Assembly (NCBI RefSeq): GCF_030297595.1
Contig: NZ_AP028138.1
Coordinates: 558,001-622,000, forward strand
DNA length: 64,000 nt
Source: Polynucleobacter sp. HIN7
GTDB taxonomy: Bacteria; Pseudomonadota; Gammaproteobacteria; Burkholderiales; Burkholderiaceae
Direction of reading: 5' to 3'
The notes under the pieces were generated by a model. It was not told the origin of the DNA and did not search any database. It saw nothing but the letters and a program-made list of their open reading frames with translations. Shown one piece after another: positions 36,338-40,953 of the stretch; the first letter of the stretch is position 1; each line of letters opens with the position of its first letter. The translations under genes and the position numbers were made by a program.

Positions 36338-36369
36338 AATAAGGCGGGCAAGACCCGCCTTATTTTTTT
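36338..36369 (+). terminator. Rho-independent terminator after ppsA
   Basis: An 11-bp perfect stem (AATAAGGCGGG at 36338-36348, CCCGCCTTATT at 36354-36364) has a CAAGA loop and is followed by a run of Ts to 36369. It lies 20 bases after the ppsA stop. The right arm contains the stop codon of the convergent Anbu gene. On the minus strand the T-run is poor, so it mainly serves ppsA. Confidence 0.93.
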
Positions 36370-37202
36370 ACCCTTTTTAGTCGTTTTACTTGGCTTGAAG
36401 ATTTGCCTTTGGGTTTATGGACAGGTACGCTGCCCAGCTTCTTTGACGGCGATAGAATCGAAATACTTTTCTTAGAGCCATTCCAACTGGGTTCTGGAAT
36501 GCTGAGTGCCACTTCTTTTAGTTTCTCACCCCAAATTCGATGCATCATTTCGAAGTAGGGATTATCTTCATCAATCGTGATTAATCTATCTAAATTGAAA
36601 GAGTCTTTCTCATAGACCAAGAGATCGAGCGGTAAGCCAACGGAAATATTACTTTTAATAGTCGAGTCCATCGAGATCAGGACACATTTGGTCGCTAAAT
36701 TAAGCGGGGTATTAAAACGAATCACCCGATCGAGAATGGGTTTACCGTATTTGGATTCTCCAATTTGAAAGTACGGAGTCTCCGGTGTAGTTTCAATGAA
36801 GTTACCGGCAGCGTAAATATTAAATAAACGAGGTTTCTCACCCTGGATTTGTCCACCAAAAATTAAGTTGCAATTGAACTCAATTCCTGACTTTTGCAGA
36901 TCCTCAAAATCGCGCTCTCTTACTTTCTTGACTGCAGAACCAACCACCGTCGCTGCCTCATGACAGCTTTTGGCATTCCAAAGATTGATGCCATCGAACA
37001 TTTCACCTTGGAGCAGAATTTCTTTGACTGCTTGGGTAATGGCTAAGTTACCCGAGCTCATGAGAACAAAAAAACGCTCTCGGTCTTGATGAAAGAGGGC
37101 CATCTTACGAAAGGTACCGATTTGGTCAACTCCCGCATTCGTTCGAGTATCGGCTAAGAAGACTAGGCCTTCATCGAGGCAAAGGGCAACGCAATAGGTC
37201 AT
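36360..37202 (-). CDS. Anbu-type proteasome-like protease
   Basis: 280 residues of the bacterial proteasome-homologue (Anbu, COG3484) family. The N-terminal threonine directly after the initiator Met (MTYCVALCLDEG) would be the nucleophile. D17 (in ADTRTN) and a lysine at mature position 32 (FRKM) fit the catalytic set of Ntn hydrolases such as HslV. The family core is about 235-245 residues; here a basic Ser/Lys-rich tail of about 48 residues follows (ends KRLKRVKK). It is the last gene of a tight operon with an ATP-grasp enzyme, an alpha-E protein and a transglutaminase-like protein. Physiological substrate unknown. Confidence 0.9.
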   Translation of the reverse strand: MTYCVALCLDEGLVFLADTRTNAGVDQIGTFRKMALFHQDRERFFVLMSSGNLAITQAVKEILLQGEMFDGINLWNAKSCHEAATVVGSAVKKVRERDFEDLQKSGIEFNCNLIFGGQIQGEKPRLFNIYAAGNFIETTPETPYFQIGESKYGKPILDRVIRFNTPLNLATKCVLISMDSTIKSNISVGLPLDLLVYEKDSFNLDRLITIDEDNPYFEMMHRIWGEKLKEVALSIPEPSWNGSKKSISILSPSKKLGSVPVHKPKGKSSSQVKRLKRVKK

Positions 37203-37204
37203 GG

Positions 37205-38017
37205 TTACAGCACTTTCACTTGTTGTATGGCAATGCGAGCCCGTAGCTCCTCTTGGCCACCACCGGAACGGATTCCTTTGATGGGTGCAGCTGAATAATA
37301 ATCCCTTCCAATGGCCAAGCGAATATGCCGTTGATCCGTCAGGCAGGCATGGGTTACATCAATACTGATCCAGCGACCTTGATCTGCATCCAAACAAACA
37401 TCTACCCAGGCATGACTTGCTAGGTTTGGAGATTCTTCGGCAAAGAAGTAGCCGCTAACATAGCGCGCTGGAATATTGGCAAACCGACATAGACTTAGCA
37501 TGATGTGACTATGATCTTGGCAGACCCCAGTCTGCATCGCAAATGATTGAGCTGCTGTCGTTGCAAAGGTCGTGACACCTGCTTGATAACGAATGCCGGC
37601 ACGAATCGCATCGGCTAGAGCCAAAACAGAATCAATGTCACGTTTATTAGGAAGTGCCGATTCAAAATACGATTGCATTGGTTCTGATATTTGTGTGAGG
37701 CTGGATGGCTGTAGAAGATAGTACGGGGACACGGCATGGGTATCATCCCGGTACTCATAGCATCCATGGCTCTTGACTTCTCCTTTGGCAGTAATGCTCA
37801 TTGATTTATAGGGCGCGTCGAGTACTAATGTTTGGCAGGTATTACCAAAAGTGTCTTGAGTGGACTTGGCTTTGACGGGCGACTGAATTTGCCACTTTAC
37901 AATCGTTTGCCCTTTGTTATCTAGTGGGCTTAGTCTTAACTCCTGAATCGAATAGCGAACTGGATTGTCGTATTGGTATTCGGTATGGTGCTCAATTTGT
38001 AAGTGCATAGGTTTCAT
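37205..38017 (-). CDS. Transglutaminase-like cysteine peptidase of the Anbu operon
   Basis: 270 residues from the ATG at 38017 (MKPMHLQIEHHTEYQYDNPV...), starting one base after the alpha-E stop; an upstream in-frame ATG at 38065 overlaps that gene. An N-terminal beta domain typical of bacterial transglutaminase-like proteins comes first. The catalytic core follows with Cys in TGVCQDHSH, His in ASHAWVDV and Asp in SIDVTHA. No signal peptide, so probably cytoplasmic. Such proteins more often hydrolyse amide or peptide bonds than cross-link. In this operon it may trim a peptide made by the ATP-grasp partner (inference). Confidence 0.9.
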   Translation of the reverse strand: MKPMHLQIEHHTEYQYDNPVRYSIQELRLSPLDNKGQTIVKWQIQSPVKAKSTQDTFGNTCQTLVLDAPYKSMSITAKGEVKSHGCYEYRDDTHAVSPYYLLQPSSLTQISEPMQSYFESALPNKRDIDSVLALADAIRAGIRYQAGVTTFATTAAQSFAMQTGVCQDHSHIMLSLCRFANIPARYVSGYFFAEESPNLASHAWVDVCLDADQGRWISIDVTHACLTDQRHIRLAIGRDYYSAAPIKGIRSGGGQEELRARIAIQQVKVL

Positions 38018-38018
38018 C

Positions 38019-38996
38019 TTAGGCAACGGCAAGGGGGATGAGGTATGCATTACTGAGCTCGTCACCGATGTGATTAATTCGTTTTAAGAACTGCTTCGTG
38101 AACTCTTCAAGACCCATATGAAAGACTTCGTTGATATCAGAGTAATCAAGGTCAGCTTGGAGTTTGCCGATAAGACGTTCAATCTCTTTGGAATTCTGAT
38201 TCCGAATTTCACCCAGCAGCATAATTAAATCACCCACGCAATAGCGTAGTGAACGGGGCATTTGTTGATTAAAGATTAGGAGTTCTGCTGCCTTTTGCGG
38301 GGTAATTTGGTCTGAGTAAATTTGGCGGTAGATCTCAAAAGCAGATACAGATCGCAACAGGGCGGCCCAGTGATAGAAATCAAAGAATGCTGAATCCGCC
38401 TCTTCATGGACATCTTGAATAGGTTTTAATTGGCGCAAGCTTGCTGGATCTTGGTACTTGGTTTCTAGGATGCGAGCAGTATTATCGGCGCGCTCTAGTA
38501 AGGTGCCAATGCGCATGAAGTAATAGGCCTCATTTTTCAGCATCGTGCCATGCATGACCCCCCGGGAGAGGTGGCAGCGATATTTAACCCAGTCTAGAAG
38601 GCTACTGGGATCAGCATAATCCTGTTTGGTAAGTAATTGCGTTAACTCAAGCCAGGTGGTGTTTTGGGTTTCCCACAGCTCAGATGTAATCCGTCCACGA
38701 ATCGCTCGCGCGTTTTCACGGGCGGCGCGCAAGCAAGACACGATACTCGATGGATTATTCGCATCAGCGATCATGAACCGCAAAATGGATTCCTGGTTCA
38801 TCTGGGAGTGGCTCGCTAGGAACGCCGGTTCTAGTTTAGAGATGGTGAGTAACTTACGCCAACTTTGGTCTCGGTATTCAGAGGGCTGCGGCAGCAAAGA
38901 GGTTTGATAGTTCACATCGAGCATACGCGCGGTATTCTCAGCCCGCTCGGTATAGCGAGCCATCCAGTAGAGGCAATCGGCGGTACGGCTTAACAT
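38019..38996 (-). CDS. Alpha-E domain protein (COG2307)
   Basis: 325 residues, almost entirely helical, opening with the family signature MLSRTADCLYWMARYTERAE, then ENTARMLDV. Alpha-E proteins have no known fold-level enzyme motif and nearly always occur beside circularly permuted ATP-grasp genes, as here (three bases away). Conserved Arg, Glu and Tyr residues suggest a partner or substrate-binding role in peptide-bond or amide formation. No signal peptide or membrane segment is seen. Function not established. Confidence 0.9.
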   Translation of the reverse strand: MLSRTADCLYWMARYTERAENTARMLDVNYQTSLLPQPSEYRDQSWRKLLTISKLEPAFLASHSQMNQESILRFMIADANNPSSIVSCLRAARENARAIRGRITSELWETQNTTWLELTQLLTKQDYADPSSLLDWVKYRCHLSRGVMHGTMLKNEAYYFMRIGTLLERADNTARILETKYQDPASLRQLKPIQDVHEEADSAFFDFYHWAALLRSVSAFEIYRQIYSDQITPQKAAELLIFNQQMPRSLRYCVGDLIMLLGEIRNQNSKEIERLIGKLQADLDYSDINEVFHMGLEEFTKQFLKRINHIGDELSNAYLIPLAVA

Positions 38997-38999
38997 GGA

Positions 39000-40412
39000 C
39001 TAATCCTCCAGTACCCAAGTATCTTTGGTGCCACCACCTTGTGAAGAGTTCACCACCAAAGAACCCTCCTTGAGGGCAACGCGGGTTAACCCTCCCGGAA
39101 CCATCTTGATGGTTTTGCCAGAGAGCACAAAAGGTCGTAGATCAATATGGCGCGGGGCAATTCCAGACTCAACAAAGGTTGGACAGGTTGATAGAGATAG
39201 CGTCGGTTGAGCAATATATTGATCGGGATGTTGAATTAAGTTCGCTCGAAAGCGCTCAATTTCCTCTTTGGTGGATGCTGGACCTACCAGCATGCCATAG
39301 CCACCAGCGCCATGAGTTTCTTTGACGACCAGCTCATCAAGATGAGCCAAGCTGTAAGCCAGATCTTCGGCCTTGCGGCATTGATAAGTCGGTACATTGT
39401 TAAGAATCGGCTTTTCACCTAAGTAGAACTCAATCATTTGCGGCACATACGGATAAATGGATTTATCGTCCGCAATTCCAGTGCCAATCGCGTTGGCTAG
39501 AGTGATATTGCCCGCACGATAGGCATTGAGTAAGCCGGCTACGCCTAAAGCAGAATCGGATCGAAATGCTAAGGGATCTAAAAAGTCGTCATCAATGCGT
39601 CGATAGATTACATCGACCCGCTGAGGCCCTTGGGTGGTTCGCATGAACACTTCTTCATCTTTGACAAACAGGTCCTTACCTTCGACCAGTTCGACACCCA
39701 TCTGTTGAGCAAGGTAAGTATGTTCAAAGTAGGCCGAGTTAAACATGCCTGGGGTGAGAACAACTACATTTGGTTTTTTTACTCCCTCTGGCTTAACGGA
39801 TTTGAGGCATTCCAATAGAAGGTCGGGGTAGTGCTCCACGGGGGCAACTCGATAGCGTTGGAATAGATCGGGAAAGAGGCGCATCATCATTTTGCGATCC
39901 TCAACCATATAGGACACGCCAGATGGTACGCGCAGATTGTCCTCTAGGACATAAAACTCACCTGCGCCTGCACGCACAATATCAATCCCGGCGATTTGAG
40001 CATAAATATTCCGCGGTACATCGATATGGCGCATTTCCGGTCGATATTGAGCATTATTAAAAATCTGCTCCCCGGGAATAATCCCAGCTTTAATGATTGC
40101 TTCGTCGTGATAGACATCATGAATAAAGTGATTGAGTGCGGTCACGCGTTGCCGAAGTCCTGCTTCAAGCGTCGACCATTCTTCTGCTGTGAATATCCGT
40201 GGGACTTGGTCAAATGGAATAGTGCGCTCAGTCCCCAAATCATCACCATAGACTGCAAAGGTGATGCCAACCCGACGAAAGATGAGATCGGCCTCAGCCC
40301 GTTTAAGGGCCATCAGAGCATCACTTTGCTCAGTTAGCCATTGCTGAAAGATGGCGTAGTGGGGTCTAGCCGCACCATGCACATCAAACATTTCGTCAAA
40401 CGGGGTTTTCAT
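39000..40412 (-). CDS. Circularly permuted ATP-grasp family ligase (COG2308)
   Basis: 470 residues from the ATG at 40412 (MKTPFDEMFDVHGAARPHY...). An ATG at 40481 would add 23 residues lacking family character and would fall inside a repeat array. It is a type-2 circularly permuted ATP-grasp protein: conserved YVLEDNLRVPSGVSYM, KETHGAGGYGML (ATP phosphate loop) and the C-terminal SSQGGGTKDTWVLE. ATP-grasp enzymes join a carboxylate to an amine or thiol through an acyl phosphate, so an amide or peptide product is expected. First gene of the four-gene operon with alpha-E, transglutaminase-like and Anbu genes. Confidence 0.92.
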   Translation of the reverse strand: MKTPFDEMFDVHGAARPHYAIFQQWLTEQSDALMALKRAEADLIFRRVGITFAVYGDDLGTERTIPFDQVPRIFTAEEWSTLEAGLRQRVTALNHFIHDVYHDEAIIKAGIIPGEQIFNNAQYRPEMRHIDVPRNIYAQIAGIDIVRAGAGEFYVLEDNLRVPSGVSYMVEDRKMMMRLFPDLFQRYRVAPVEHYPDLLLECLKSVKPEGVKKPNVVVLTPGMFNSAYFEHTYLAQQMGVELVEGKDLFVKDEEVFMRTTQGPQRVDVIYRRIDDDFLDPLAFRSDSALGVAGLLNAYRAGNITLANAIGTGIADDKSIYPYVPQMIEFYLGEKPILNNVPTYQCRKAEDLAYSLAHLDELVVKETHGAGGYGMLVGPASTKEEIERFRANLIQHPDQYIAQPTLSLSTCPTFVESGIAPRHIDLRPFVLSGKTIKMVPGGLTRVALKEGSLVVNSSQGGGTKDTWVLED

Positions 40413-40466
40413 AGTCTTTACGGTATTACGCCGGAATGACAAATCATCCGTAAATTGGCATGGCTT

Positions 40467-40493
40467 GGTGCAAATATGCACCTAAATGGTGCA
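40467..40493. repeat. Three alternating GGTGCA/TGCACC repeats upstream of the Anbu operon
   Basis: GGTGCA at 40467-40472, TGCACC at 40477-40482 and GGTGCA at 40488-40493, with spacers of four and five bases. The first two form a 6-4-6 palindrome, and the last two form an alternative hairpin. They lie 55-81 bases before the ATP-grasp ATG and just after the smpB stop on the same strand. They could be an operator or mutually exclusive RNA hairpins; function is inferred. Confidence 0.6.
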
Positions 40494-40503
40494 AGAAACA
40501 GGA

Positions 40504-40953
40504 TTATGAGAGTTGACCGCGCACGATTCTGGCTTTTTCTCGCTCCCAGTCACGCTCTTTACTTGCCTCGCGCTTATCGTGTTGTTTCTTTCCGCGGGCA
40601 AGCCCAATTTCACATTTAACTCGACCCTTTGAGAAGTGCAAATTGAGCGGGACCAAGGTATAGCCTCGCTGCTCAACTTTGCCGATGAGTTTCCGAATCT
40701 CGCTCTCATTTAAGAGGAGCTTGCGGGTTCGGGTGGGGTCGGCATGAATATGAGTCGATGTCGAGGAGAGTGGACTGATGTGAGAACCAATCAAATAAAT
40801 TTCAGCATTACGCACTACGACATACGCTTCCTTAATTTGCGCACGACCAGCACGAATTGCCTTAACCTCCCACCCTTCGAGGACAAGGCCCGCTTCATAG
40901 CGTTCTTCAATAAAATAATCAAAGAAGGCTTTTTTGTTATCGACGATACTCAT
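40504..40953 (-). CDS. smpB: SsrA-binding protein SmpB
   Basis: 149 residues. N-terminal [20 protein letters not shown] and the [19 protein letters not shown] segment form the OB-fold that binds tmRNA. The basic C-terminal tail (KRERD-like, here [16 protein letters not shown]) enters the mRNA channel of stalled ribosomes. It is essential for trans-translation. Divergent from ratA-rnfH with 34 bases between starts, the same arrangement as in E. coli. Confidence 0.97.

Follow-up and report, generated by a model that had tools for sequence, protein, structure and literature searches.

An Anbu operon of Polynucleobacter sp. HIN7 and its predicted control by nitrogen

The locus

The subject of this study is a four-gene operon found in a window of 64,000 nucleotides from Polynucleobacter sp. 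HIN7 (Burkholderiales; NCBI RefSeq assembly GCF_030297595.1, contig NZ_AP028138.1, positions 558,001 to 622,000 of the forward strand), coordinates below being counted from the first letter of that window. Packed on the minus strand with gaps of 3, 1 and 2 bases, the genes code for a circularly permuted ATP-grasp protein, an alpha-E protein, a transglutaminase-like protein and Anbu, a proteasome-like protease. A sequence-only reading had proposed this arrangement and these families, with spacings of one to three bases; the genes are where it placed them, and the families are borne out by Pfam and PDB matches. With ATP-grasp, alpha-E, transglutaminase and Anbu in one unit, the cluster is confirmed as a member of the published Anbu operon type, and its close spacing suggests that the four genes are transcribed together. 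The genes and the elements in front of them are the following.

39000..40412, minus strand: ATP-grasp gene, ATG start at 40412, 470 residues (open reading frame and Pfam)
38019..38996, minus strand: alpha-E gene, 325 residues (open reading frame and Pfam)
37205..38017, minus strand: transglutaminase-like gene, ATG start, 270 residues (open reading frame and Pfam)
36360..37202, minus strand: Anbu gene, 280 residues (open reading frame and PDB matches)
40477..40493, minus strand: perfect NtrC-type palindrome TGCACC-N5-GGTGCA, TGCACCATTTAGGTGCA, 64 bases before the ATP-grasp ATG
40456..40471, minus strand: second conserved element, with GCACCAAGC, its start lying 22 bases past that of the palindrome

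The open reading frame finder gave the ATP-grasp gene a longer start, GTG at 40481; the ATG was retained because that GTG would overlap the palindrome and because relatives align from the ATG. Likewise, a GTG start at 38065 for the transglutaminase-like gene would overlap alpha-E. None of the four proteins has an NCBIfam match at 0.001.

Promoter sites in the HIN7 genome and its clade

The sequence TGCACCATTTAGGTGCA fits what we take to be the NtrC consensus. It is the only match in the window at one mismatch or fewer, 0.77 being expected from shuffled sequences. Perfect copies of TGCACY-N5-RGTGCA number three in the 1.8-Mb genome, against about 0.4 expected from the base composition of the window, and the other two stand before glnA-ntrB-ntrC and before an ammonium-transporter gene (the latter copy also runs into the beginning of a small divergent open reading frame). 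Here glnA and the Ammonium_transp gene were recognized by Pfam, ntrC by a match to its family profile and ntrB by its position. With a palindrome upstream and an ntrC gene in the genome, the operon is a candidate NtrC-controlled unit.

The site is well preserved in the clade of the window (24 loci: the window, L031-L050, L058, L063 and L064). The search covered -100 to -60 relative to the ATG, and in all 24 the best site falls at -80 to -82; both arms are exact in 20, and conservation is far stronger in the arms than in the sequence farther upstream. Two loci not among the 24 have their sites nearer the gene: that of L051 (genome G003) is perfect and lies at -78, that of L053 (G015) is weak and lies at -58. 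Most columns of the second element are also invariant in the 24 clade loci, and this element may be a second NtrC half-site or the remnant of a sigma54 -24 element. No sigma54 -24/-12 promoter scoring at least 8 of 12 was found within 450 bases upstream of the operon in the window, and the clade operons had no sigma54 element in the upstream regions scanned.

Promoter sites in wider relatives

For wider comparison a site had to reach 10 of 12 or better, both for sigma54 and for NtrC. Forty upstream regions of 300 bases (the window and 39 relatives) gave sigma54 sites in 7 and NtrC-type sites in 27, where base shuffling gave rates of 0.75% and 1.1%. A second sample was formed by named loci, the best 80 of 595 confirmed Anbu loci, with up to 9 kb fetched on each side (shorter on short contigs). 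Among these, 33 have an ATP-grasp match; sigma54 sites were found in 17 of them and NtrC-type sites in 19, so that at least one of the two is present in 26 of the 33 (shuffle rates 0.9% and 1.6%). By contrast, among the same best 80 of 595, the Comamonadaceae-type loci where Anbu stands away from the operon (47 loci, 46 with enough upstream sequence; L164 has the cluster some 5 kb off) showed a sigma54 site before Anbu in 1 of 46 and an NtrC-type site in 2 of 46. From this difference it appears that nitrogen control follows the ATP-grasp/alpha-E core and not Anbu alone, and it is predicted control of this core that the present evidence adds to the earlier picture of the operon.

Two observations on neighbouring gene sets may be recorded here. 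Where Anbu of the Comamonadaceae type stands away from the operon, an alpha/beta-hydrolase-like gene lies within 50 bases after it in all four loci read by eye (L120, L123, L126 and L160, from L117-L186), an assignment verified with Pfam in two of the four; upstream of Anbu, three of them have what we take to be a mutS-like gene, with another gene in between in L123. There is also a second cluster (L252-L263), made of a transglutaminase frame of about 1130 residues and an ATP-grasp/alpha-E frame of about 870 residues, with NtrC-type sites in several genomes of the genus. A scan of 12 paralogous clusters with the long transglutaminase, made on stretches of about 800 bases with no shuffle control, found an NtrC-type site in 7 of them and a sigma54 site in an eighth, the site of G011 lying near the end of its stretch and probably inside a gene. 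The window genome gave no match to this second cluster in the ATP-grasp, alpha-E and transglutaminase searches.

Nitrogen control in print and its weight here

Papers are cited here by PMC number, and what is reported of them comes from excerpts of their text. In Pseudomonas putida, growth on nitrate as compared with ammonium raises PP_2685 (annotated as a bacterial proteasome, beta subunit, and taken here to be Anbu) by 4.44 log2 and the ATP-grasp gene PP_2688 by 3.99 log2, and depletion of nitrogen induces the PP_2688 promoter 3.7-fold (PMC8050072). A second paper mentions that Anbu is up-regulated when P. putida is limited for nitrogen (PMC5666114). The NtrC-sigma54 regulon of Burkholderia cenocepacia includes a DUF404/407, DUF403 and transglutaminase cluster (I35_5080-5083), i.e. 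ATP-grasp, alpha-E and transglutaminase, which departs from the operon of the window by a second, large transglutaminase protein (PMC5491218). A survey of sigma54 regulons lists the COG3484 proteasome-type protease (PMC12316311), and in marine metagenomes these domains correlate with urea metabolism (PMC3597751). The promoter sites before the operon fit the nitrogen induction published for P. putida and B. cenocepacia. Nitrogen control of the operon is thus partly in print; its mapping in Polynucleobacter is done here.

Taken together, the data lead us to read the locus as an Anbu operon of the known type that serves under nitrogen limitation, making and breaking an amide bond, with a probability of about 45%. 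A number of facts weigh against it. The window genome keeps rpoN and an NtrC of the GAFTGA type, yet the operon has no sigma54 promoter; its regulation by NtrC is predicted from the site, and binding of NtrC there could also mean repression. When one mismatch is tolerated, the pattern has 14 matches in the genome and its reverse has 6, which is why only perfect palindromes were used. Genome-wide counts of sigma54-like sites do not separate genomes with rpoN from those without. Seven of the 33 named loci show neither kind of site, and the loci are related, so that their counts are not independent. In the excerpts available, the PP_2685 promoter construct was unresponsive to nitrogen (PMC8050072), the NtrC-controlled cluster of B. 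cenocepacia as listed lacks Anbu (PMC5491218), and expression of the operon was unchanged under various conditions (PMC5666114).

The last of these published results, together with the absence of a sigma54 element in the window clade, would suit a palindrome that belongs to another regulator, the operon being constitutive or otherwise controlled and nitrogen irrelevant to it in the genus. This is quite improbable: the identical motif precedes glnA-ntrBC and the ammonium-transporter gene and matches the consensus that we presume for NtrC, in more distant operons the equivalent position is taken by sigma54 and NtrC sites, and ntrC scores over its family cut-off in 59 of 61 genomes (the window genome, 36 of the genus and 24 of the order). 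The sites shared with glnA and the ammonium-transporter gene have the merit of narrowing the condition in which to look for a substrate of the operon, and comparison with Anbu genes located elsewhere attaches nitrogen control to the ligase and alpha-E, not to Anbu alone.

The four proteins

The ATP-grasp protein matches CP_ATPgrasp_2 (PF14403, 5.7e-167) and PF04174 (7.8e-154) in Pfam, and 3n6x (6.7e-218) in the PDB. In an alignment of 22 proteins (that of the window and 21 chosen from 33), E157, D158, N159, R161, K364, G370, G371 and G373 are invariant, and we take these to be the catalytic nucleotide and metal residues of an ATP-grasp enzyme. Family match and conserved residues place the protein among the circularly permuted ATP-grasp enzymes, with a predicted activity. 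The alpha-E protein (PF04168, 4.1e-99) carries the motif ER-A-[ED]-NTAR twice, at residues 15-24 and 166-175. It is predicted to be all helical, with an AlphaFold2 model at a predicted local distance difference test (pLDDT) score of 88; it has no PDB sequence match up to an E-value of 10, and its identity is about 75% with named Polynucleobacter proteins and 98% with a metagenome cluster. The transglutaminase-like protein matches Bact_transglu_N (PF08379, 4.6e-21) and Transglut_core (PF01841, 5.5e-19). Its putative triad C166-H202-D220 falls inside the segments aligned with PDB 3isr, and presumably plays the Cys-His-Asp roles of transglutaminase-like hydrolases.

Anbu retrieves from the PDB five distinct solved Anbu chains (5loy, 5nyw, 5nyj, 5nyf and 5lox, 2e-83 to 2.1e-68), its only other match being a proteasome beta subunit at 0.58, while its score for the Pfam Proteasome family, 21.5 bits, is just below the cut-off of 22.4 bits. 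Counted after removal of the methionine, Thr1, Asp17 and Lys32 occur in all 35 Anbu proteins read, and an alignment of 17 of these shows no variation at the three positions. The intact Thr1 and D17 of the sequence-only reading therefore survive the alignment check, with no loss of catalytic residues in the window; Thr1/Asp17/Lys32(33) is also the set named for Yersinia Anbu (PMC6376114). The protein aligns with the solved chains, which are 240-251 residues long, through its residue 240. An extended C-terminal helix for tight dimers and a lock-washer of 12-14 subunits are features expected of Anbu. In the window genome Anbu is the sole match to the proteasome family PF00227, and a search for HslU, the partner expected in an HslUV system, gave 7 matches with none over the curated cut-off. 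Anbu thus shares the N-terminal nucleophile (Ntn) hydrolase family and its catalytic residues with HslV and the 20S proteasome beta subunits, and differs from them in the absence of an HslU over cut-off in the genome and, as published, in forming open lock-washers or helices instead of closed rings.

With the Yersinia and Pseudomonas Anbu operons (PMC6376114, PMC5666114) that of the window shares its four families, arranged in the conserved order that was published, an intact Thr1/Asp17/Lys32(33) and the lack of an unfoldase gene. Unlike these, the window clade has a lysine-rich Anbu tail and an NtrC palindrome near the start codon, with no sigma54 element.

How the operon might work

The Anbu operon is widespread. 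Under the nitrogen-limitation reading, when nitrogen is short phosphorylated NtrC would bind the palindrome at 40477-40493 and activate the four genes at the same time as glnA-ntrBC and the ammonium-transporter gene, a step suggested by the site and by published data in other bacteria. The ATP-grasp protein, with alpha-E as a helper or scaffold, would then activate a carboxylate with ATP and join it to an amine, yielding a peptide-like or isopeptide conjugate, as its family suggests; release of phosphate from ATP is reported for the Yersinia ATP-grasp (PMC6376114). The Cys-His-Asp hydrolase of transglutaminase type and the Thr hydrolase Anbu, with their intact residues, would cut or transfer amide bonds. 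With two hydrolases cutting such bonds, the conjugate could be trimmed or undone and its nitrogen recovered.

Glutathionylspermidine synthetase/amidase unites ATP-grasp amide synthesis with a cysteine amidase, and gamma-glutamylation salvage routes offer another parallel. The logic of the operon would resemble these more closely than an unfoldase-driven protease. The likeness to the former lies in the pairing of the two activities; that enzyme is one fused protein with known substrates, whereas the window has separate proteins, a circularly permuted ATP-grasp and, in addition, alpha-E and Anbu.

An older view makes of the operon a device for protein tagging, where ATP-grasp and alpha-E tag proteins with a peptide or an amino acid, the transglutaminase-like protein transfers or removes the tag and Anbu degrades the tagged proteins or acts in the manner of a deubiquitinase, raising turnover in nitrogen starvation. 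Hypotheses of this type are credited to Iyer 2009 and to Valas and Bourne 2008 by PMC6376114 and PMC5666114. The proteasome ancestry of Anbu speaks for tagging, nitrogen induction suits protein turnover, and the lysine-rich tail of Anbu might serve as an acceptor or for docking. Against it, the operon has no unfoldase partner, many Anbu genes stand away from the other operon genes (in 46 of the 80 named loci, the best of 595, the stretch fetched contains no ATP-grasp and no alpha-E match), and no specific complex was detected among the Yersinia operon proteins in the excerpts of PMC6376114. As far as those excerpts go, moreover, Anbu cleaves no proteasome substrate tried, and that of Pseudomonas aeruginosa is inactive on an assay set that includes labelled casein (PMC5666114). 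Inertness on proteasome substrates, in a genome without HslV and HslU, favours a special amide substrate over bulk proteolysis. Tagging by the operon is possibly compatible with both facts, and we hold it to be unlikely. The sequence-only reading was right that the gene association is known, with synthesis of a tag and its removal or proteolysis proposed and no substrate established; the self-contained tagging or peptide-metabolite system that it suggested is possible, as one of several published guesses, with nothing that supports it specifically.

Alternatively, the product may be a nitrogen storage compound or a small peptide metabolite, such as a polyamide or a peptide-polyamine, later mobilized by the two hydrolases. 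Bond-forming and bond-breaking families are indeed side by side, the closest solved ATP-grasp structure, 3n6x, is named 'putative glutathionylspermidine synthase', and the correlation with urea metabolism in marine metagenomes (PMC3597751) points the same way. However, one would not expect a nitrogen store to be built during nitrogen shortage, and there is no transporter among the four genes. We doubt this explanation, and would call it an unlikely one.

Loss of rpoN and change of NtrC in the genus

Of the 37 genus genomes 14 have an rpoN gene (PF04552), as have all 24 outside the genus (a few of the genomes without rpoN are incomplete); most genomes of the window clade lack it. The GAFTGA motif of NtrC is readable in 33 of the 37 genus genomes, the count leaving out G001, G003 and G025, which have no readable motif, and G009. 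It is intact in six, all with rpoN and including the window genome, and altered, mostly to GAFPGA, in 27 of 33, of which 22 lack rpoN and 5 have it; none of the 22 genomes with a readable motif and without rpoN keeps GAFTGA. The Walker B aspartate of NtrC is changed in 16 of 31, and the ntrC match of G023 contains a stop codon (ntrC loci read: L092, L097-L107, L109-L111 and L222-L242). The palindrome of the operon persists in genomes with an altered NtrC and no rpoN. In Rhodobacter and Caulobacter, NtrC devoid of GAFTGA is reported to work at sigma70 promoters (PMC10274813). A shift from sigma54-dependent to sigma54-independent NtrC sequences within one genus provides a natural series for the study of how an activator changes its partner. 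A literature search for rpoN in Polynucleobacter gave one paper, with a single mention of the genus.

A lysine-rich tail on Anbu

Beyond the segment shared with the solved chains, Anbu of the window clade carries a basic extension.

36363..36482, minus strand: C-terminal tail of Anbu, rich in lysine; the final 40 residues hold 13 K/R and 0 D/E

All 20 full-length Anbu proteins read from the clade (the window and L031-L049) extend 40-61 residues past residue 240, with 11-17 K/R and 0-1 D/E from residue 239 on. Compared with the other C-termini of the window (55 non-overlapping open reading frames of at least 150 residues), that of Anbu is the most basic, at +13 against a mean of 0.4 with a standard deviation of 3.0. 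The tail of G003 and G025 is about 30 residues long with 3 K/R and 2-3 D/E, G005, G006, G029 and G032 have no tail or almost none, and the Anbu C-termini read in other families hold 0-5 K/R. Among the best 80 of 595 loci, a basic tail is found in L112-L115 only, which may overlap the same species; the remaining loci have 1-9 K/R together with 1-11 D/E. The C-terminal helix that precedes the position of the tail forms the Anbu dimer (PMC5666114), so that the tail should sit outside the core. Among the titles listed for Anbu and the proteasome none refers to it, no search having been aimed at the tail itself.

The tail gives a concrete handle on Anbu in Polynucleobacter. One might go further and imagine that each of the 12-14 Anbu subunits of a particle offers its lysine-rich tail as an acceptor, or as a polyanion anchor, to the amide conjugates that ATP-grasp/alpha-E and the transglutaminase-like protein produce, amino acids or peptides being loaded on this proteasome-like ring, and later unloaded, on a nitrogen-starvation signal, a switch which most of the genus would read via a sigma54-free NtrC; this combination we regard as very improbable.

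Distribution and variants

Conservation across Polynucleobacter, which the sequence-only reading had put forward for survey, was examined together with that in other genomes of the order. Across the 61 genomes Anbu is present in 40, ATP-grasp in 43 and alpha-E in 43, and all 40 genomes with Anbu have both ATP-grasp and alpha-E. Six of the genus (G001, G009, G010, G018, G027 and G031) gave no ATP-grasp, alpha-E or Anbu match, G009 being 84% complete, and in three others, L054 (G029), L055 (G006) and L056 (G005), ATP-grasp, alpha-E and Anbu follow one another and the stretch gave no transglutaminase hit. Outside the genus, G037 has the same three-gene row, again with no transglutaminase hit in its stretch. 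Three genomes, G015 (L053), G021 and G039 (L062), have ATP-grasp and alpha-E with no Anbu match; the contig of G021 ends inside the transglutaminase gene, and G039, outside the genus, has a transglutaminase-like gene beside the pair. The composition of the operon is therefore not fixed. In G017 (L058, C1:977600-982700), a small one-contig genome, all four genes are in pieces, which indicates that the members of the set can decay jointly; the NtrC palindrome there has stayed perfect. At the scale of the order, Anbu is found in 160 of 300 genomes sampled, and in 83 of 134 genera.

Surroundings of the operon

The end of the operon is marked by a hairpin.

36338..36364, both strands: terminator-like hairpin, 12-pair stem on the minus strand and 11 on the plus strand, overlapping the Anbu stop codon

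It parts the operon from a convergent gene resembling phosphoenolpyruvate (PEP) synthase, with PEP-utilising and PPDK domains. Hairpins inside the operon have 5-6 pairs, the long one coming only after Anbu; its T tract is imperfect on the minus strand. Terminator-like sites in the region number 7 against 4.9 (standard deviation 2.3) in shuffles, which is no clear excess, the hairpin at the end of Anbu being the longest. On the other side, directly upstream on the same strand and 91 bases from the operon, lies smpB (40504-40953, by Pfam), a gene of trans-translation.

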